64,000 bases of DNA from Bythopirellula sp. Its GTDB lineage: Bacteria > Planctomycetota > Planctomycetia > Pirellulales > Lacipirellulaceae. Shown piece after piece: positions 11,342 through 19,659 of the stretch (its first letter is position 1; each line of letters begins with the position of its first letter). Made by a program: the position numbers and the translations under genes. The stretch is from NCBI GenBank assembly GCA_028285205.1, contig JANQQA010000143.1, forward strand, positions 1 to 64,000, in the 5' to 3' direction. A model generated the notes under the pieces. The model ran no database searches. It saw only the letters and a program-made list of their open reading frames with translations, and was not told where the DNA came from.

Positions 11342-12031
11342 ATGAACGTCTGGCTGCATATCGGCAACATACTCTATCTGCTTTCCTACTCAGTACGCGA
11401 CATCTTATGGCTTCGCATCATCACCGTGGTGGCGATCATAAGCATGATGCCTTACTACTACTGTTGCACTGAGAACCCGTTGTACGAGCCGATCCTATGG
11501 AATGCCCTGTTCGCGGTGGTGAACGTGGTGCAGATTGGTCGTTTGATCCTAGAGCGTCGGCCAGTTTTTCTTGGGGAGGACGACCTGCGTCTGTACAATA
11601 TGGTCTTTCGCAGCCTTTCGCCCCGCGAGTTTATGAAACTGATTGCGATTGCCGATCACAAGCGAGCGGACGCTGAGCAAGAAATACTGAAGCAACACGA
11701 ACCGATCAAGGAATTGATCTTGGTCTCCAAAGGTCGGGGGCGGGTTGAGGTCGATGGTCGACTGGTTGCCGAAGTGATGCCGGGCCAGTTCATCGGTGAG
11801 ATGGGATTCCTCACGGAACAAAATGCCAGCGCGAGTGTGCACACCAGCCTGCCACTAGAGTACGTGGCATGGCCGGTTGATGAGCTGAAGGAACTGTTTC
11901 GCGAGAATCACGCGCTACATGTCAAGGTACAAGGCATCCTGGGCGTTGATCTCGTCGAGAAACTACGCCAAGAAGGCTACGCAACCGCACATCCTTCCAA
12001 GATCATGGCCGGCTATCGAAAAGACGACTGA
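11342..12031 (+). CDS. Popeye (POPDC)-like membrane protein with cyclic-nucleotide-binding-like domain
   Basis: A 229-residue protein with three N-terminal hydrophobic segments (about 4-19, 22-40, 49-68) and a soluble C-terminal domain. The first half carries features I recognise from animal Popeye proteins: RDILWLR at 19-25, a tryptophan-containing third helix LWNALFAVVNVVQI, and LERRPV at 70-75. Residues about 105-190 look like the CRP-type beta-barrel (ELILVSKGRGRVEVDG, GQFIGEMGFL). Vertebrate POPDC proteins bind cAMP and regulate membrane channels. A similar membrane-tethered nucleotide sensor is inferred here. The classical CRP phosphate-binding RxA motif is not evident (NASASVHT lies there), so the ligand is uncertain. 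There is no obvious operon partner; egtB converges on it. Confidence 0.75.
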   Translation: MNVWLHIGNILYLLSYSVRDILWLRIITVVAIISMMPYYYCCTENPLYEPILWNALFAVVNVVQIGRLILERRPVFLGEDDLRLYNMVFRSLSPREFMKLIAIADHKRADAEQEILKQHEPIKELILVSKGRGRVEVDGRLVAEVMPGQFIGEMGFLTEQNASASVHTSLPLEYVAWPVDELKELFRENHALHVKVQGILGVDLVEKLRQEGYATAHPSKIMAGYRKDD

Positions 12032-12060: not shown

Positions 12061-13353
12061 CTATTCCGACTTGGCAAGACGGATGCCGGAAAACTGCCAC
12101 TGTGAATCGGGCGAGAAGAAGTTGCGATACGTCGCGCGGATGTGATCGGAGGACGTCGCCACCGAGCCGCCGCGCAACACGTACTGGTTGCACATGAACT
12201 TGCCGTTATACTCGCCGAGCGCGCCCGCCGCCGGTTGGTAGCCGGGGTACGGCGCGTAGGAACTAGAAGTCCATTCCCAAACGTCGCCGAACATCTGCAC
12301 GGGAAAGTCGTCCTCCGAGTCGATTGAGGCGGGGTGAATGGCAGAGTTGCTTGCCAGCAATGTGTCCGCAAAGTGGCCCTCGCGCGGCACGTCAGCGGCA
12401 TGCACTTCCCACTCAGCCTCCGTGGGCAGTCGCCCGCCGGCCCAACGTGCGTAGGCGTCGGCTTCGAAGTAGCTGACGTGTGTCACTGGGGCAGCCTGAT
12501 CCAGTGGCCGTAGGCCAGCGAGGGTGTACTCCTGCCAACTACCGTCGACCTGAAACCAGTACAAGGGATGAGCACAACCAGTCCGTTGCACGAAGTCCCA
12601 ACCCATCGACAACCACAGCTCTGGCCGCGTGTAGCCACCGTCTTCGATGAAATTCAGAAACTCGCCACTTGAGACCGGTCGACTCGCAATGCTGTGCTGT
12701 TCCAAAAACACACGATGTCGGGGGCTTTCGTTGTCGAAGGCAAATCCTTCGCCGGCGTGACCAATCTCGTGGACGCCTTCCAAACCGGGCAACCACGCAG
12801 TGGTCGTGCCATGCGGTTGGGAGCTTCGGGACTTGCCGTCACGAAAAACAGGAAATAGCGGGTTATGCGAGAACAGGTGCTTGAGATCGGTAAGAATGAG
12901 TTCCTGATGTTGTTGCTCGTGCTGAATCCCGAGTTCGACGATTCGCGTCAGATGCGAGTCATCGTCAGTCGCCGCTTTGATTCGCTCGGCAACCGCCTGG
13001 TCGATGTGTTCGCGATAGGCAAACGTTTGCTCCAGGGTTGGTCGCGAGAGCAGCCCGCGTTGATGGCGAGGAAACTGCTCGCCGACGGCGTTGTAGTACG
13101 AGTTAAACAGCACTTCGTAGCTGTCGTCAAATACACCGTAGCTCGAGTCTTGCTTGAGCAGAAACGTCTCGAAGAACCAGCTCGTATGAGCAAGATGCCA
13201 ACGCACAGGACTGGCGTTCTCCATCGATTGCAGGCAGCAGTCTTCGGGTGAGAGCGTCTCGCAAAGCTTCATCGTGAACGAACGCACGGCAAGGTATCGA
13301 TCGCAGAGACTTTGGGGCGAAACGGCCGGTGGAAGTTCAATGCTTTGGGACAT
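12061..13353 (-). CDS. egtB: Ergothioneine biosynthesis sulfoxide synthase EgtB
   Basis: A 430-residue non-haem iron enzyme that joins hercynine to a cysteine-type thiol donor with oxygen, giving a sulfoxide intermediate of ergothioneine. The ATG at 13353 was chosen because it begins the conserved N-terminal DinB-like domain; the longer frame to 13461 is unconvincing. The iron-binding HxxxHxE motif is HEQQHQE (His145, His149, Glu151), and RWHLAHTSWFFE (51-62) supplies the DinB-side His. The C-terminal half is a formylglycine-generating-enzyme-like fold (FGE-sulfatase domain), with SSGEFLNFIEDGGY and a final VLRGGS segment. The start overlaps the upstream transporter gene by 17 bases, so the two are translationally linked. 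EgtD is encoded first in the same operon. No egtA, egtC or egtE is visible. Confidence 0.93.
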   Translation of the reverse strand: MSQSIELPPAVSPQSLCDRYLAVRSFTMKLCETLSPEDCCLQSMENASPVRWHLAHTSWFFETFLLKQDSSYGVFDDSYEVLFNSYYNAVGEQFPRHQRGLLSRPTLEQTFAYREHIDQAVAERIKAATDDDSHLTRIVELGIQHEQQHQELILTDLKHLFSHNPLFPVFRDGKSRSSQPHGTTTAWLPGLEGVHEIGHAGEGFAFDNESPRHRVFLEQHSIASRPVSSGEFLNFIEDGGYTRPELWLSMGWDFVQRTGCAHPLYWFQVDGSWQEYTLAGLRPLDQAAPVTHVSYFEADAYARWAGGRLPTEAEWEVHAADVPREGHFADTLLASNSAIHPASIDSEDDFPVQMFGDVWEWTSSSYAPYPGYQPAAGALGEYNGKFMCNQYVLRGGSVATSSDHIRATYRNFFSPDSQWQFSGIRLAKSE

Positions 13354-14878
13354 CGCTCTCACTCGCTGAAAGGGGACGCAGACCGGCGGGAACCAACCAC
13401 CGTTCAGAATACTCAAATACAACTTGCAACAGAATCGCCAAACAGGCAGCAGGCACCGCACCTTGCATGATCAGCGAAGTGTTATTCAGTCGGATCCCGG
13501 TGAGAATCGGCTGCCCATAACCGCGCGCCCCCACAAGTGCACCCAGGGTGGCAAATCCAACATTGAGCACCGCCGCGGTCTTAATGCCTGCAAGAATCGA
13601 AGGTGAGGCCAGCGGGAGATCAATATGGAATAGACGAAAGCTGCGTGACAGACCGAGTGCGGTCGCAGACTCGCCGTACTCCGGGGGAATCGTCGCCAGG
13701 CCGGTTGCGGTATTGCGCACGATCGGCAGCAGGCTGTACAGGAACAGCGCCACCACCGCAGTCATCGAGCCGGCACCAATGGTGTTCAAGTTCAAATAGG
13801 CAACCGGAGCGATCAGTAGCACAAGCAATGCCAGCGCCGGAATCGTCTGCACGATGCCGACGGCTCCGAGAATGATTTGACCCAGACGAGGCAACTTCGC
13901 CGCGATGACGCCTAGCGGAATCGCAAAGAAGATCGCCGGAATCAACGAACGACGCACCAAGTCGCAATGCTCCAGAGTGCGTTGCCAAACTTGGGATGCG
14001 AGTGACGGGTCTTCGATATCGCTGGAAACGGAGAACTCGTCACGCAAGAAATCGGCGGCCGCCTGACGCTCGCTAGCCTCCTGTGCGGCAACGCGGGCGT
14101 TAAGCTGTATGATCGCGGGTTCATCGATGGCCGATTCGAGCTGCAGGACCTTGTCCACCAGCTCGGGGTAGCGATTCTGCAAGTCGGACCGATAAAGCAC
14201 CACGGCATCGTATCGGGGGAAGTACGCCAAATCGTCTTCCAGCAAGACCAGGTCCAACTCTGCCAGCTGCGCGTCCGTTGTATAGGCGTCCATCACGTCG
14301 ATGTCTTGCACTTCGAGCTGCCGGTATGAGACGGCGTGTTCCATGCCGGATACCCGCTCATGGGGCAGCGAGTAGACCTTACGCAAGTTCTTCCAACCAT
14401 CGTCGCGGTCAATGAATTCGTTGCTGAAGCCCAATCGCATGTCCGGATGATCGGCTAGGTCCGAAATCGTCTTCAAGTCCAATTGCTCGGCGGTTTCGCG
14501 TCGCACTGCGAGGGCATAGCTATTGTTAAACCCCAGTGGTCGACTGATACTGATCCCATCTTTGGCGAGCAGTGACGGTAGCTGCGCTTCCGTCACGTCG
14601 GCCTCGCTGGCGAAGATCTCTTTGATCAGCGTGCCCGTATACTCAGGATAGGCATCGATTTCGCCGCGACGCAGCGCGTCGAACACGACCGTTGTGCCGC
14701 CGACCGATAGATGTGTGGAAGGCTGTCCCGTCGATCGGATGAGCTGCGTCAGCATTTCGCCCAAGATGGCCGTTTCGGGGTCCTGCTTCGAGCCGACGCG
14801 GATGCCTGCCGGTGGCGAGCCGCTTGGCAGCAAGACCAGCACCAACAACAGTAAGCCAATGACAAGGTACCGATTCAT
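13337..14878 (-). CDS. OpuC/EgtU-like ABC transporter: substrate-binding domain fused to permease
   Basis: A 513-residue fusion. Residues 1-22 are a signal/anchor helix. Residues about 24-283 are a glycine betaine/OpuAC-type solute-binding domain with the characteristic DAYPEYTGT (76-83). Residues about 305-495 are a permease with the EAA-like ATPase contact loop EYGESATALGLSRSFRLF (400-417). Such proteins import trimethylammonium compounds or, in the EgtU branch, ergothioneine. It overlaps the ATPase gene upstream (ATGA-type, 4 bases) and egtB downstream (17 bases), so it is embedded in an ergothioneine operon. The likely substrate is ergothioneine or its betaine precursor hercynine. Known EgtU proteins carry the permease first and the binding domain last; here the order is reversed. 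Choline or glycine betaine remain alternatives. Confidence 0.85.
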   Translation of the reverse strand: MNRYLVIGLLLLVLVLLPSGSPPAGIRVGSKQDPETAILGEMLTQLIRSTGQPSTHLSVGGTTVVFDALRRGEIDAYPEYTGTLIKEIFASEADVTEAQLPSLLAKDGISISRPLGFNNSYALAVRRETAEQLDLKTISDLADHPDMRLGFSNEFIDRDDGWKNLRKVYSLPHERVSGMEHAVSYRQLEVQDIDVMDAYTTDAQLAELDLVLLEDDLAYFPRYDAVVLYRSDLQNRYPELVDKVLQLESAIDEPAIIQLNARVAAQEASERQAAADFLRDEFSVSSDIEDPSLASQVWQRTLEHCDLVRRSLIPAIFFAIPLGVIAAKLPRLGQIILGAVGIVQTIPALALLVLLIAPVAYLNLNTIGAGSMTAVVALFLYSLLPIVRNTATGLATIPPEYGESATALGLSRSFRLFHIDLPLASPSILAGIKTAAVLNVGFATLGALVGARGYGQPILTGIRLNNTSLIMQGAVPAACLAILLQVVFEYSERWLVPAGLRPLSASESDVPKH

Positions 14879-15606
14879 GCGAAGACAGGCCGTTGTGCTT
14901 GGACAAACTTGGCAGCGAACTCATCGACGGGATTCGCTATCAACTCAGAAAAGTCGCCCTGTTGTACGATCTTGCCGTGGCTAAGCAACGTGACACGATC
15001 GGCCAGGAACCCCGCTTCCGCCAGATCATGGGTCACCAGCACGACCGTCTTGCCCAATTCGCGGAAGATGATTCGCAGGTCTTGCTGTAACTCCGCTCGG
15101 ATCATTGGATCGAGGTCGCCCAGCGGTTCGTCGAGGAGCATCACGTCGGGATCGAGCATCAGCGCACGCATCAAGCTCACACGCTGACGCTGGCCGCCAG
15201 AGAGTTGACGCGGGTAGCGGTCGAGCAACGCGATAGGCAATTGAGTCAGCTCCAGAAGCTCCTTAATTCTTACGTCCGATTCGGAGGGTTGCCACCGCAG
15301 GTAACGGGGCACGATAGCAATGTTCTCTCGCACAGTCAGGTGCGGGAACAAGCCGCCTTCTTGTATCATGTAACCAATTCGTTGTCGCACCGAGTCCAGT
15401 GTGAGTTCGTCAAGCGGTTCGCCTTCAAACAACACACTTCCGGAATCCGGAGTGACCAAGCCAACCATCATTCGCAGCAGCGTGGACTTACCGCACCCGC
15501 TCGTACCGATCAAAACCTGGGTCTGGCCCTTGGGACAGGTCAGATCGATAGCATCGACAGCCAGCTGGTGGCCGAATCTCTTCGATACCTGGCGAAGCTC
15601 GATCAT
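14875..15606 (-). CDS. ABC transporter ATP-binding protein (OpuCA/EgtV-like)
   Basis: A 243-residue ATPase that energises the fused binding/permease protein encoded next. Walker A is GTSGCGKST (34-42), the Q-loop is in YMIQEGG near 82, the ABC signature is LSGGQ (135-139), Walker B is VMLLDE (155-160) and the switch His is His193. It matches the quaternary-amine-transporter ATPase class but lacks the C-terminal CBS pair found in OpuCA and OpuAA. Direct ionic-strength or cyclic-dinucleotide control by that module is therefore not expected. It sits 39 bases downstream of egtD and overlaps the following gene by four bases. The arrangement egtD-ATPase-permease-egtB implies one transcript. Confidence 0.92.
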   Translation of the reverse strand: MIELRQVSKRFGHQLAVDAIDLTCPKGQTQVLIGTSGCGKSTLLRMMVGLVTPDSGSVLFEGEPLDELTLDSVRQRIGYMIQEGGLFPHLTVRENIAIVPRYLRWQPSESDVRIKELLELTQLPIALLDRYPRQLSGGQRQRVSLMRALMLDPDVMLLDEPLGDLDPMIRAELQQDLRIIFRELGKTVVLVTHDLAEAGFLADRVTLLSHGKIVQQGDFSELIANPVDEFAAKFVQAQRPVFA

Positions 15607-15645
15607 CGATCCGTCCAGTAGAGAAAAGCAACAGGGAAGAGTGAT

Positions 15646-16620
15646 CTAGTCTAGCAGAGCAAAGTGAAGCACGGCGAATCGCTGCTGCTCGTCGGTCCAA
15701 CTGCGTCGCAGCATTAGGCCGACTTCCGCCGCGATATCAGCAAATCCGCCAATGGTGTACTTGTGCGAGTACTCAGTGAGTATCTTCTCATTCTTCTCGA
15801 TGTGAAAAGTCTGATCAGAAACGGAGACCTTCTGCTGGCTACTGCTAACCAACGAGATTTCAATCCGGTGCTCCTCTGAGTCATAGACCGCCCGATGGTC
15901 AAACTCGTCCAGTTGGAAGTCACTCGCAAGTTCGCGATTGATATGCCTAAGCATGTTGAGGTTGAACTCGGCCGTCACGCCACGAGCGTCATTGTACGCG
16001 GCCTCGAGGACTTCCACGTCCTTTTGCAGGTCGATCCCGATCAGCAACCCACCGCCTCGTCCGCAAAGATCAGCGATCTGTTGCAACATCACAAGTTTTT
16101 CAGGAACCTCGAAATTGCCGATCGTTGAGCCCGGGAAGAACACAGCAGTATGGGTCGGATCTTGGCGCGGCTGCGGCAAATCGAACGGCTGCGTAAAATC
16201 GGCACAGACAGGCAAGACTTCGATCTTGGGAAACTTCTCGCGCAGCTGCTTAGCCGTCAGCCCCAAGTGATCTCGCGAGATATCCACCGGCACATAGGCA
16301 GCGGGACGATCGAGTGCATGCAGTAACGCTTCTGTCTTCGTGCTACTTCCGCTGCCGTACTCCACCAGCATCACGCCAGGACCGATCTGCTCCGCCATTT
16401 CATGCGAATATCGTTTGATAATCCAGTCTTCGCAGCGGGTGGGATAATACTCGTCCAGTCGGCAGATCTCGTCGAAGAGCTGCGAACCGCGCTGGTCATA
16501 CAAGTACTTTGAGGGGAGCTGCTTGGGCGTGGCATTGAGTCCCGCAATCACGTCCTCCAGAAATTCATCGCGACCGGGTTGCTGGTCTATGAGGGCGCTA
16601 ACAGAATTAGATTTGTCCAT
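15646..16620 (-). CDS. egtD: L-histidine N-alpha-trimethyltransferase EgtD
   Basis: A 324-residue SAM-dependent methyltransferase that converts histidine to hercynine, the first step of ergothioneine synthesis. The ATG at 16620 is preferred over an in-frame TTG at 16635; a GGAATTAGG stretch lies upstream. Family hallmarks are all present: LPSKYLYDQRGSQLFDEI near the N-terminus with the following EYYPTRCE, SAM motif LVEYGSGSSTKTE, YVPVDIS, and FFPGSTIGNFE. The C-terminal half binds the histidine substrate. It is the first gene of the egtD-ABC-egtB operon. The next gene upstream, a multihaem cytochrome on the same strand, ends 90 bases before it, so read-through from there is possible. Confidence 0.93.
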   Translation of the reverse strand: MDKSNSVSALIDQQPGRDEFLEDVIAGLNATPKQLPSKYLYDQRGSQLFDEICRLDEYYPTRCEDWIIKRYSHEMAEQIGPGVMLVEYGSGSSTKTEALLHALDRPAAYVPVDISRDHLGLTAKQLREKFPKIEVLPVCADFTQPFDLPQPRQDPTHTAVFFPGSTIGNFEVPEKLVMLQQIADLCGRGGGLLIGIDLQKDVEVLEAAYNDARGVTAEFNLNMLRHINRELASDFQLDEFDHRAVYDSEEHRIEISLVSSSQQKVSVSDQTFHIEKNEKILTEYSHKYTIGGFADIAAEVGLMLRRSWTDEQQRFAVLHFALLD

Positions 16621-16710: not shown

Positions 16711-19659
16711 TTAGCGCACATCGGTTCGGGCGGACGTGATTGGTAGCTTCCAGTCCTCGATAGCAGTACCTCGCAGGTCGATATTGCTGCAAATGTAGTG
16801 CAAACGCTGCGTGGCCGGTCCGTCCGGCGCGATCTCAAACAAGCTTTGCAGAAAGTAAGGAGGGATCGCTTGATAGTGCATTGTTACACGAACCTCCAAT
16901 CGATCTCGGTCGGCATCTGCGGGCAGCGCGACTCGATAGGTCACTTCATCGGATCCGCTGCCGTCGGTGTAGCGAGGATCGCGCTTTGCCTTCGGTCCGG
17001 GGTGGGTCGCTTTGAGAAACTCGCCGTTGAGAGCCGGACCAGGTCCTTCAGCACTCCAACCGCGTGGCAGCAGTCGGTTGTCTTTCACGATCTTTGATCC
17101 ATGAATAAAGCTCGTCGTATAGCGATGGTGCTCACTATGCAGCAGTGTTTCGTAAATCTGCACTTGATCGGATGAAGTGATCACATCGTGATGTGGTTGC
17201 GAGACCTGTTCGTCACTTGCATTCGGCCCCTCGCTGAAGAACTCAGACGGCAGAGGATTGCCCTCCGCATCAATCAGCACGCCCAATTCATTGGTCCTGC
17301 CCGACGACCATACAACGCGTTCGTCGCCGGTCCCATCCGTGGGCTTTTCAATCACGAGGAACTCAAGAAACGCACGACGAAATCCCACGCCGCTGGGAAA
17401 GCGATGGCCCACCTTGTTGTGAACCGTGACATCCGCAACCAATTCATTATCGTCGTTGACCGCCGCGCTTACCCCGATCGACGCGACGTCGTGCCTGGCT
17501 TGCCGCACGAAATCATCCACGGCGTGCGGGATATCGGCCTTCGAACCCGTCATGAAGTCGAACTTTCGCACGCCCAGGATATCGTCGAATTGGTTGAACA
17601 TCTCGAGCAAGAACACGTTAAGACCGCGGAAGTTGTGTCGAGCATATCCCTCTTTGCGAACGCGGACGTGCAGGTCTTTGTGTTCGGCCAGATTCTCCGC
17701 GTCGGGAAACGTATCGTCCTGAATCGCGGCGATCCGGGTCTCGATGCGATCAAGGTGCACCGCCAGGTCGTCGTTGTGGTAGTCTTTCGACATGTGACAG
17801 TCCTGGCAGCTCTTCGCTTTGGGATTGTCGGGGTTGAATTCGTTCTCAAATTCGCTGTTGAGCCATTCCAAGTACGTTGCTTGTTCGATGTGGTGGTGAT
17901 ATTGCTTGAACACCGGATTCTGTTCAGCGGCGATCAATGCATCACCGTCGGCGGAATGTGCCGGCTTGTCTAAGATCGGCAGGTTCACGACGTGGCAGGT
18001 ACCGCACATTTGTGACGACTTGATATACGGATTGTGCTTCGGCTTGAAGCCTAGCGCGTGCTCCATCGAATATGGCGCAATTTCCTTGTCCTCGAACGGC
18101 CCATGCAGCTCGTTGGCTTTGCCCAGATGAATGTTCCCGGTAATGGAGGTCTCCAGGAAGTACTCAAGATAGTGCCGATGGTCATCGGCGGGCTGTTCGC
18201 GCGGTTGCATGTGGTGGCAAATTGTGCAACTGATTCCGTCGCGTGCCAGCGACCCATACTGCCAATGATCCTCTTCGGCGGCATTTTCGTCGGTTGAGGC
18301 GCGCATCACATGATCGAGTCCGAACGGTTGGGCATCCGGTCCGTGATCGAGTCGATACTGGTGTTTGCCCATCGCGCCGTGACAAGTCAAACAAGTCTCG
18401 ACCAGCGTTTCGATGTGCAGCTTGGTCTTCTCCGTGTCTTTGCCAAAGTCGGCTTTGATCAGCTCGATTTCGCTCTCAAGCTGAGCAAAGAAGATTGGGT
18501 CACGACCAGCCAGACCCATCGGCGTCCAACGCCATTCGCCATACGGTGAAAGGTGCACGCCCTCCGCGGCGTAGCCAGCATCTTCGCCGGTCGGCACGAA
18601 CATCGTCGGCCCGAACGGTTCGGTAAGGCCTGCGTGACAACTCATGCATTGGTTCGAGGTGACAAACGGCTGCGATTGTTGTTCAGACGCAGGGCGACGA
18701 ACGACCCAATCGTGCGTGATTGGCGGAAAGTGCAGCACATCCGGCCGCATTTTCTGTGCGATCTGTGGGAAGAGCTTAAGGAACTGTGGACTGAGAACCG
18801 CCTGACAGCGTTCCGGATGGTCGGTGTCGCTGCAGCGAGGATGCGCGGAGATCGGCAGATTTTCTAAGCTGGTGGTAAGCAGGATCTCATTGCCCTGGTC
18901 ATCGGTTCCTTCGTCGGGAGTGGGTTCCTCGTGATGCTCGACTTCGCGCCACGAATCATCGACACGGAAAAGGAGTGGCTCGCCTGGATACCCTTCAATG
19001 TTACGCAGCGACGAAAACGTGAACTCATTTGTCTCGCCCTGAGTATGAGTTGACGCGTGGCAACGAACACAGTAGATGCCAAAGCCGGAGATGGGATGAT
19101 CAAATGGGTATTGATGGTTGTCGACGACCTGCTGATCTTTTGCTGGGTTGCTCCAAAACCACCCGTCGTGCGAGCCTGCCGAATCTTTGACCATCACTGT
19201 CCAGCTTGACAGCAATTCGAAGCGTTGCTCGTCAGTCATGCCCTCATAGCGCGCAGCTGGCGGTTCGAACTGTTCTTTGATGATCATCGCGCCATCGGGA
19301 ATGGCCGTTCGTTTGCCGTCCTCTAGCCACTCAATGATTTCTGGGGAATAGAATATGTGAACCGCGGGATGGGTGCCGTAATATTTGCCGTCGATATATG
19401 GGCCGGTGTCTCGCACGCGCTTGTCGTGAGCCCAGCCGAGTCGTTTATAATCGCGCTGATTGAGAAACTTGAAGAGTTGCGTCTCATAATCAGTGACGCT
19501 CAACAAGCTAGGTAGCGGCAACGGACTCGCATTAACTGGTTGCTCAAGCCCAACCAGCGTGACGCCTTCCACCGACTTCTCCGGCGAAGTTTCGGCGCAG
19601 CCAATAATTGCACACGCACCACAAGCGATCACCAACGCAGCTGAAAGTCGCAGCGTCAT
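16711..19659 (-). CDS. Large multihaem c-type cytochrome lipoprotein
   Basis: A 982-residue exported protein with six CxxCH haem-binding motifs (CVRCH at 197-201, then CMSCH, CLTCH, CTICH, CGTCH and CQDCH, spread through the middle). The N-terminal signal ends in an IIGC lipobox (Cys21), so lipid anchoring is likely. Many additional His residues could serve as distal haem ligands. The last 300 residues lack haem motifs and look beta-rich, possibly a partner-binding or sandwich domain (for example VTVHNKVGHRFPSGVG). It resembles large periplasmic electron-transfer cytochromes; no catalytic lysine-ligated haem (CxxCK) is seen. It probably moves electrons in the periplasm or at the outer membrane. 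The closest neighbours are the egt operon downstream and a GAF protein upstream. Confidence 0.85.
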   Translation of the reverse strand: MTLRLSAALVIACGACAIIGCAETSPEKSVEGVTLVGLEQPVNASPLPLPSLLSVTDYETQLFKFLNQRDYKRLGWAHDKRVRDTGPYIDGKYYGTHPAVHIFYSPEIIEWLEDGKRTAIPDGAMIIKEQFEPPAARYEGMTDEQRFELLSSWTVMVKDSAGSHDGWFWSNPAKDQQVVDNHQYPFDHPISGFGIYCVRCHASTHTQGETNEFTFSSLRNIEGYPGEPLLFRVDDSWREVEHHEEPTPDEGTDDQGNEILLTTSLENLPISAHPRCSDTDHPERCQAVLSPQFLKLFPQIAQKMRPDVLHFPPITHDWVVRRPASEQQSQPFVTSNQCMSCHAGLTEPFGPTMFVPTGEDAGYAAEGVHLSPYGEWRWTPMGLAGRDPIFFAQLESEIELIKADFGKDTEKTKLHIETLVETCLTCHGAMGKHQYRLDHGPDAQPFGLDHVMRASTDENAAEEDHWQYGSLARDGISCTICHHMQPREQPADDHRHYLEYFLETSITGNIHLGKANELHGPFEDKEIAPYSMEHALGFKPKHNPYIKSSQMCGTCHVVNLPILDKPAHSADGDALIAAEQNPVFKQYHHHIEQATYLEWLNSEFENEFNPDNPKAKSCQDCHMSKDYHNDDLAVHLDRIETRIAAIQDDTFPDAENLAEHKDLHVRVRKEGYARHNFRGLNVFLLEMFNQFDDILGVRKFDFMTGSKADIPHAVDDFVRQARHDVASIGVSAAVNDDNELVADVTVHNKVGHRFPSGVGFRRAFLEFLVIEKPTDGTGDERVVWSSGRTNELGVLIDAEGNPLPSEFFSEGPNASDEQVSQPHHDVITSSDQVQIYETLLHSEHHRYTTSFIHGSKIVKDNRLLPRGWSAEGPGPALNGEFLKATHPGPKAKRDPRYTDGSGSDEVTYRVALPADADRDRLEVRVTMHYQAIPPYFLQSLFEIAPDGPATQRLHYICSNIDLRGTAIEDWKLPITSARTDVR

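Follow-up and report, generated by a model that had tools for sequence, protein, structure and literature searches.

The closest described relative of the system treated here is the ergothioneine importer EgtU of Streptococcus pneumoniae and other Firmicutes, in which an OpuAC-type binding domain is fused to a permease and served by a separate ATPase, the permease coming first and the binding domain last (PMC9732360, section 7), and which, as far as that account goes, has been described from bacteria that do not produce ergothioneine themselves. Production, in turn, is known to proceed either by the aerobic EgtD-EgtB pathway or by a route in which EgtD is paired with a metallopterin-dependent ergothioneine synthase (MES), neither of which, in the available sections of PMC9516567, includes a dedicated transporter, and PMC12689799 states that no ergothioneine exporter has been identified so far. 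Here we describe a four-gene operon from a 64,000-nucleotide stretch of Bythopirellula sp. DNA (assembly GCA_028285205.1, contig JANQQA010000143.1, positions 1 to 64,000; “the window” below), in which the genes for EgtD, an ATP-binding cassette (ABC) ATPase, a fusion of a binding domain with a permease, and EgtB follow one another. What is new is not EgtU-type import, which is already known, but a lineage of EgtU/ProX-type importers that is tied to genomes encoding EgtD; no account joining genes of ergothioneine synthesis to a transporter of this kind was found among the titles and abstract openings listed in literature searches, a mention within the work on Helicobacter pylori EgtU still being possible. 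An earlier note on the window, made from the sequence alone, had placed the four genes on one strand with spacings of 39, -4 and -17 bases, which our coordinates (minus strand throughout) reproduce; its recognition of ergothioneine synthesis genes linked to a transporter also held, as both EgtD and EgtB exceed curated cut-offs, and so did its remark that the binding domain, last in EgtU, comes first here.

In a tree of binding domains, 125 proteins with the binding domain in front formed, together with one further protein (L103; genomes and loci are cited by our own handles), a single group with a support of 0.987, which contains the window fusion and stands apart from all other permease-first proteins, from five PDB references and from the binding-domain-first proteins of L104-L106. 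Carriage of this clade goes with EgtD: among 392 genomes of the window's phylum, EgtD was matched in 38 of the 40 carriers (37 of 39 when the window's own genome is left out) versus 50 of the 352 non-carriers, these searches having scored at most three to five candidates per genome, so that absences, those of EgtB above all, are to be read as lower bounds. The 40 carriers span 21 families, each of which has at least one carrier with EgtD, and the two carriers devoid of an EgtD match are G371 and G109; EgtB was matched in 28 of the 40, and in none of them was it seen without EgtD. When all binding-domain-first fusions of the phylum are taken together (43 of the 392 genomes at E 1e-30 or better, as judged by eye, including G260, G104 and G156, whose matches come in two pieces or with a stop), EgtD is found in 38 of the 43, and none of the three carriers of such fusions outside the clade (G340, G408 and G374) had an EgtD match; all seven nearer relatives did have EgtD. 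A comparable picture was obtained for 143 Gammaproteobacteria, nine of which have the transporter and 53 EgtD: EgtD is present in 8/9 carriers (7/8 if G435 is set aside, the genome on which the sample was centred and which had been picked as a known carrier) versus 45/134 of the others, the carrier without it being G479, a 1.5-Mb record. The transporter nearly implies EgtD, and EgtD does not imply the transporter.

The enzyme of the sulfur step seems to matter little for this association. No EgtB match at E 1e-30 was obtained for 12 of the 40 phylum carriers, and in the loci of six such carriers (L120-L124 and L126) a gene of 1135-1145 amino acids, in two pieces in L124, stands beside egtD. 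All four of the egtD-adjacent large genes that were scanned contain Molybdopterin, Molydop_binding and Aminotran_5 domains, and the Molybdopterin/Aminotran_5 architecture is that of MES (PMC9516567, section 5). A full or two-piece MES was present in 8 of the 18 genomes searched for it, all eight being among the 12 carriers that gave no EgtB match; as to their taxonomy, seven of these MES carriers come from one family (f60) and the eighth is G382, the gene of G295 being in two pieces. In G371, where MES is present and EgtD gave no match, only 211 bases of a 5.6-kb contig are left beyond the MES gene, and the neighbouring gene, possibly egtD, is thus out of view. An EgtB-like gene with 27-29% identity lies near egtD in G141, G172 and G296, and in G109 neither EgtD nor MES was found. 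A Candidatus Scalindua locus (L146) even shows the order ATPase-fusion-EgtD-MES. The transporter accompanies EgtD whichever enzyme adds the sulfur, and since it goes with EgtD on both routes, the molecules shared by its hosts are hercynine and ergothioneine.

The same connection is written in the gene neighbourhoods, as 48 of the 126 non-redundant clade loci have EgtD, EgtB or MES in their flanks, which were covered over up to about 8 kb per side for L060-L109 and 6 kb for L141-L220 and are often cut by contig ends (the 126 are the tree group plus L204, that is, 127 loci, of which L092 and L201 are one and the same). The linked loci show 15 gene-order patterns, some incomplete at contig ends, with a median transporter-egt distance of 156 bases (calculated over 48 rows, with the window out and both L092 and its duplicate L201 in), and, going by record titles, they come from Planctomycetota, Verrucomicrobia, Acidobacteria, Proteobacteria (alpha, gamma and one record titled Bordetella), Thermodesulfobacteriota, Dadabacteria, Spirochaetia, Ignavibacteria and Tectomicrobia, mostly as metagenome-assembled genomes. 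Some of the linked genes are distant enough to call for caution: the methyltransferase of L108 (27%) and one of the two in L094 (28%) may not be EgtD, and the EgtB-like neighbours in L067, L069, L152, L168, L179, L190, L193, L212 and L220 are only 26-36% identical. The linkage label changes 26 times on the tree, as compared to a mean of 39 (minimum 31) for shuffled labels, so that linkage is in part a matter of inheritance and in part of repeated gain or loss. The earlier note had also proposed a genome search for the four-gene arrangement, and this bore fruit both close by, the order egtD-ATPase-fusion-egtB being kept in two same-genus genomes at 70-71% identity (39 near genomes searched), and far away, egt linkage recurring beyond the phylum, so that one of the two outcomes named in the note as refuting, absence of the linkage from relatives, was not observed. 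When the neighbouring open reading frames of the 126 loci were clustered together with those of the window, the fusion (99 loci), the ATPase (72), EgtD (41) and EgtB (26) came out as the largest families; three further clusters, with 16, 14 and 7 loci, were set aside, all 37 of their members being antisense to the fusion, ATPase or EgtB. The remaining families occur in at most six loci (a sulfatase in six, the others, including an aldehyde dehydrogenase in five, in four or five), and the ten representatives annotated from the clusters of four to six loci comprise a sulfatase, a pyridine nucleotide oxidoreductase, a methyltransferase, a class III aminotransferase, the aldehyde dehydrogenase and others.

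The reversed domain order, which the earlier note had taken as the key point, did not survive as an explanation: having the binding domain in front is usual in the clade, L104-L106 share that order although their genomes gave no EgtD match, and egt genes also have partners in a clade of permease-first proteins. The permease-first protein of L221 (G213:C334) lies upstream of egtB and egtD, and that of L222 (G073:C943) adjoins egtB/egtD, both loci having been chosen because their coordinates already put them beside egt genes; the permease-first loci collected earlier (L107 and L110-L119) were egt-linked in 0/11 cases. Nine L221-like proteins form one clade (support 0.999), which is joined by AfProX (0.91) and then by H. 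pylori EgtU (0.90), the latter thus being placed with this clade and not with that of the window. A search with the L221 protein found 18 of the 392 phylum genomes at E 1e-60, one of which (G144; 271 bits, 39%) was excluded, as its copy, L110, falls outside the permease-first clade in the tree. EgtD is present in 14 of the remaining 17 (nine placed by the tree and eight by score only, with G213, the source of the query, and G073 known beforehand as egt-linked), and none of the 17 carries the binding-domain-first clade; with G144 counted, EgtD is present in 15/18, and one genome has both transporter types. The two clades together cover 52 of the 88 EgtD genomes versus 5 of the 304 without EgtD, and the chance of zero overlap between them would be 1.5e-4 for independent genomes, a premise that does not hold here. 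As the permease-first clade is also EgtD-associated, the egt partnership does not stem from domain order.

As to the transporter itself, the fusion scores 195 bits against PF04069 and 77 bits against PF00528, and its AlphaFold2 model (55 aligned sequences; mean predicted local distance difference test score of 91) has H. pylori EgtU (8dp6) as its best fold match. By sequence, its best PDB matches are those of pneumococcal EgtUC (the mutant 9o5f with 150 bits and 7txk with 146), closely followed by Lmo1422 (136), 8dp6 (132) and AfProX (130 bits); the best NCBIfam match of the ATPase is TIGR01186 (proV), under its cut-off. Nine pocket residues of EgtU, K242, T275, T296, N339, Y341, E375, R379, Y419 and Y443 (pneumococcal numbering; PMC9732360, section 8), are retained in the window protein, whereas F293 is replaced by Tyr (Y80), Y337 by Phe (F117), T274 by Gly, I243 by Gln and G244 by Asp (D33). 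The Asp is found in the window alone among 128 binding-domain-first fusions (residue 33; 14780-14782, minus strand), within a local change from KKFTES to KQDPET; a paired frameshift as its cause was rejected, the codons being in frame with those of L060 and L061. H. pylori EgtU, whose domain order presumably differs from that of the window fusion and whose host we take to make no ergothioneine, likewise carries Tyr at the F293 and Phe at the Y337 switch position, differs in having Ser at G244, Asp at E375 and Phe at Y419, and is represented by a second PDB entry (8dp6/8dp7) whose title gives the protein as bound to ergothioneine. AfProX, which binds glycine betaine and proline betaine, is, we assume, a separate, unfused binding protein. 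Its K13, Y63, T66, F107, Y111, E145, R149, Y190 and Y214 all have equivalents in the window protein, where the AfProX-type cage of four Tyr residues with Lys, Phe, Glu and Arg is made up of K31, Y80, F117, Y121, E154, R158, Y199 and Y223, and the differences are at F15 (D33 in the window) and D109 (Asn); these AfProX numbers were counted on the alignment, Y63 and F107 being named in PMC9732360.

We are inclined, by a narrow balance of probability, to regard the four genes as one ergothioneine module, the predicted cargo of its importer being ergothioneine recaptured by producers. EgtD would trimethylate histidine to hercynine, EgtB would add the sulfur, and a C-S lyase encoded elsewhere would complete ergothioneine; in the periplasm, a ligand with a trimethylammonium group and an alpha-carboxylate would be bound through the four-Tyr cage, Lys31, Thr83, Glu154 and Arg158, and the ATPase would power its inward movement, the direction being suggested by the presence of a binding domain. 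The cargo might be ergothioneine that had leaked out, been exported or been released by neighbouring cells, making the transporter a retention or recapture system, or perhaps half of a cycle with ergothioneine acting in the periplasm and then being returned. Ergothioneine is put forward as the likeliest cargo because the clade tracks EgtD, with either sulfur enzyme, and hence producers and not non-producers; as the known EgtU supplies non-producers with what they cannot make, the best reading of a transporter found chiefly in producers is that it recaptures their own or the community's product. Recycling or salvage in a producer, which the earlier note had suggested, is thus backed by the EgtD co-occurrence and by the recurrent linkage, the cargo itself being a prediction. 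The transporter is best taken as an importer that serves ergothioneine producers, most probably by re-uptake of ergothioneine, with hercynine as the second choice. The more general claim, for which we would put the chances somewhat short of even, is that this unnamed lineage, with its binding domain in front and its glycine-betaine-like pocket, consists of ergothioneine importers that commonly, though not obligatorily, accompany ergothioneine synthesis in bacteria of nine or more phyla (by record titles) and on both the aerobic and the metallopterin route, recovering the cell's own ergothioneine and so implying a periplasmic export-and-return cycle.

A number of observations weigh against recapture. 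The genomes are related and the counts ignore kinship, so that Fisher values overstate their independence, and the transporter is evidently optional, being present in only 38 of the 88 EgtD genomes of the phylum. Of the 80 named genomes that carry the clade fusion, 73 have EgtD (33 in the flank, and 40 of the remaining 47 elsewhere in the genome), but these 80 were the top hits of a profile built in part from egt-linked members, and seven of them (G429, G430, G432, G442, G444, G449 and G465) have no EgtD; together with G109 and G479, these seven make up nine carriers in which neither EgtD nor MES was found. The pocket pattern is that of AfProX, i.e., glycine betaine-like, and lacks F293 and G244 of pneumococcal EgtU: all 128 binding-domain-first proteins have Tyr at F293, and 127 of them have Phe at G244, which is also the position of AfProX F15, and section 13 of PMC9732360 treats the absence of these two residues as a sign of another ligand or of relaxed specificity. 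Moreover, egt-linked, unlinked and permease-first proteins are nearly identical in their pocket residues, so the egt partner is not singled out. Reading ligand specificity from the pocket was consequently dropped, and because linked and unlinked members hardly differ, the pocket residues neither prove nor exclude ergothioneine. The comparison with betaine transporters that the earlier note had envisaged as a possible refutation thus went halfway: the pocket did come out AfProX-like, without F293 and G244, but this is not decisive because H. pylori EgtU shares the Tyr/Phe pair and because pneumococcal EgtUC with G244F or F293Y still binds ergothioneine (Ka, the association constant, of 2.0e5 and 2.0e6 per M, respectively, versus about 2e7 per M for the wild type; PMC9732360, Table 1). 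What the residues do predict is a carboxylated trimethylammonium ligand, with no choice among ergothioneine, hercynine and glycine betaine.

It is in this light that the other readings have to be weighed. The transporter might import glycine betaine or another small betaine and be connected to ergothioneine only indirectly, whether by a common stress regulation or by supplying methyl groups to EgtD, an enzyme that consumes three S-adenosylmethionine molecules per product. We consider this somewhat unlikely: almost all of the 128 binding-domain-first proteins do have the AfProX pocket residues (K, F, Y, T, F, Y, E, R, Y, Y), and the fusion, being the sole PF04069 (OpuAC) protein detected in the host draft genome (93% complete), could be the general betaine importer of the cell, but a general importer need not concentrate in EgtD genomes in the way this one does (38/40; 73/80). 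The aldehyde dehydrogenase family seen near five loci could, but need not, mean betaine metabolism, and apart from it no betaine-metabolism neighbour appeared among the ten representatives scanned. The ATPases point away from osmoprotection as well, since those of osmosensing Opu/Pro transporters carry a C-terminal CBS module, whereas the ATPase of the window gave no Pfam match to a CBS domain and none of 70 homologous ATPases beside clade fusions extends 80 residues or more past its end (the largest extension being 64).

Salvage of hercynine (trimethylhistidine), taken from other cells or from oxidised ergothioneine and fed to EgtB or MES, would equally suit an association with both routes, hercynine being their common intermediate (PMC9516567, introduction and section 5), and a Phe at the place where EgtU has water round the thione might favour a sulfur-free ligand. 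Carriers with EgtB and without EgtD would then be expected, however, and the count of such carriers is 0/40 (G371, with MES and no EgtD match, being cut at a contig end), and the affinity of pneumococcal EgtUC for hercynine lies far below that for ergothioneine (PMC9732360, section 12); we hold this reading to be improbable. Finally, the genes could be neighbours by chance and the transporter have nothing to do with ergothioneine, as might be surmised from the 78 of 126 loci that have no egt gene in the stretch examined, yet 15 different gene-order patterns with a median distance of 156 bases, along with the finding that 40 of 47 unlinked named genomes have EgtD elsewhere, render this very improbable. 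If ergothioneine recapture is indeed what the lineage does, it would point to a return path in producers, a setting other than the non-producers from which, in the accounts available, bacterial ergothioneine importers have been described. This would bear on the cellular site of ergothioneine action, on its sharing between cells and on the genes that decide its retention in fermentation strains, and it would suggest that the set of pocket residues by which ergothioneine transporters have so far been identified may be drawn too tightly.

The genes of the operon are listed below; the coordinates of egtD and egtB presume ATG starts, longer open reading frames with TTG or GTG starts being present.

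Genes of the ergothioneine operon, with positions in the window
Feature	Coordinates	Strand	Family matches
egtD, histidine N-alpha-trimethyltransferase	15646..16620	-	TIGR03438, PF10017
ABC ATPase, ProV type, 243 amino acids, no C-terminal extension at the place of the CBS module	14875..15606	-	PF00005
Fusion of an OpuAC binding domain (residues 26-279) ahead of an ABC permease (319-497)	13337..14878	-	PF04069, PF00528
egtB, sulfoxide synthase, nearest 8qf6/6qki/6o6l	12061..13353	-	TIGR03440

EgtD scores 402.4 bits against TIGR03438 (cut-off 290.9) and 366 bits against PF10017, and all six sequences among its solved-structure matches are EgtD/histidine N-alpha-methyltransferases; EgtB scores 567.4 bits against TIGR03440, where the cut-off is 360, and 369 against SenA, the model for selenoneine synthase, under its cut-off of 420. 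Among solved structures, EgtB is much closer to 8qf6/6qki/6o6l, titled “EgtB (Cabther)” (472 bits), than to 4x8b (149 bits), and the former group is, we assume, the EgtB type that takes cysteine directly. The claim of the earlier note that all catalytic motifs are intact could be borne out for the part that was checked, namely, the EgtB stretches HLAHTSWFF and HEQQHQE, which we take to provide the iron ligands and which align to solved EgtB without gaps and with a single Ala/Gly difference.

A scan for promoters and terminators gave no excess over shuffled sequence. Convergent with egtB, at 11342-12031 on the plus strand, lies a gene for a protein with a Popeye domain (POPDC1-3, 53.7 bits) and a cyclic-nucleotide-binding domain, homologues of which adjoin egt or transporter genes in L060, L061, L103 and L221, and which is a possible candidate for a regulator. 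The gene immediately upstream of egtD (16711-19659, likewise minus strand) encodes a 982-amino-acid protein with weak matches to cytochrome P460 and MtrC/MtrF, both under their cut-offs; L060 and L061 preserve its place beside egtD, and L103 has a homologue near the cluster.

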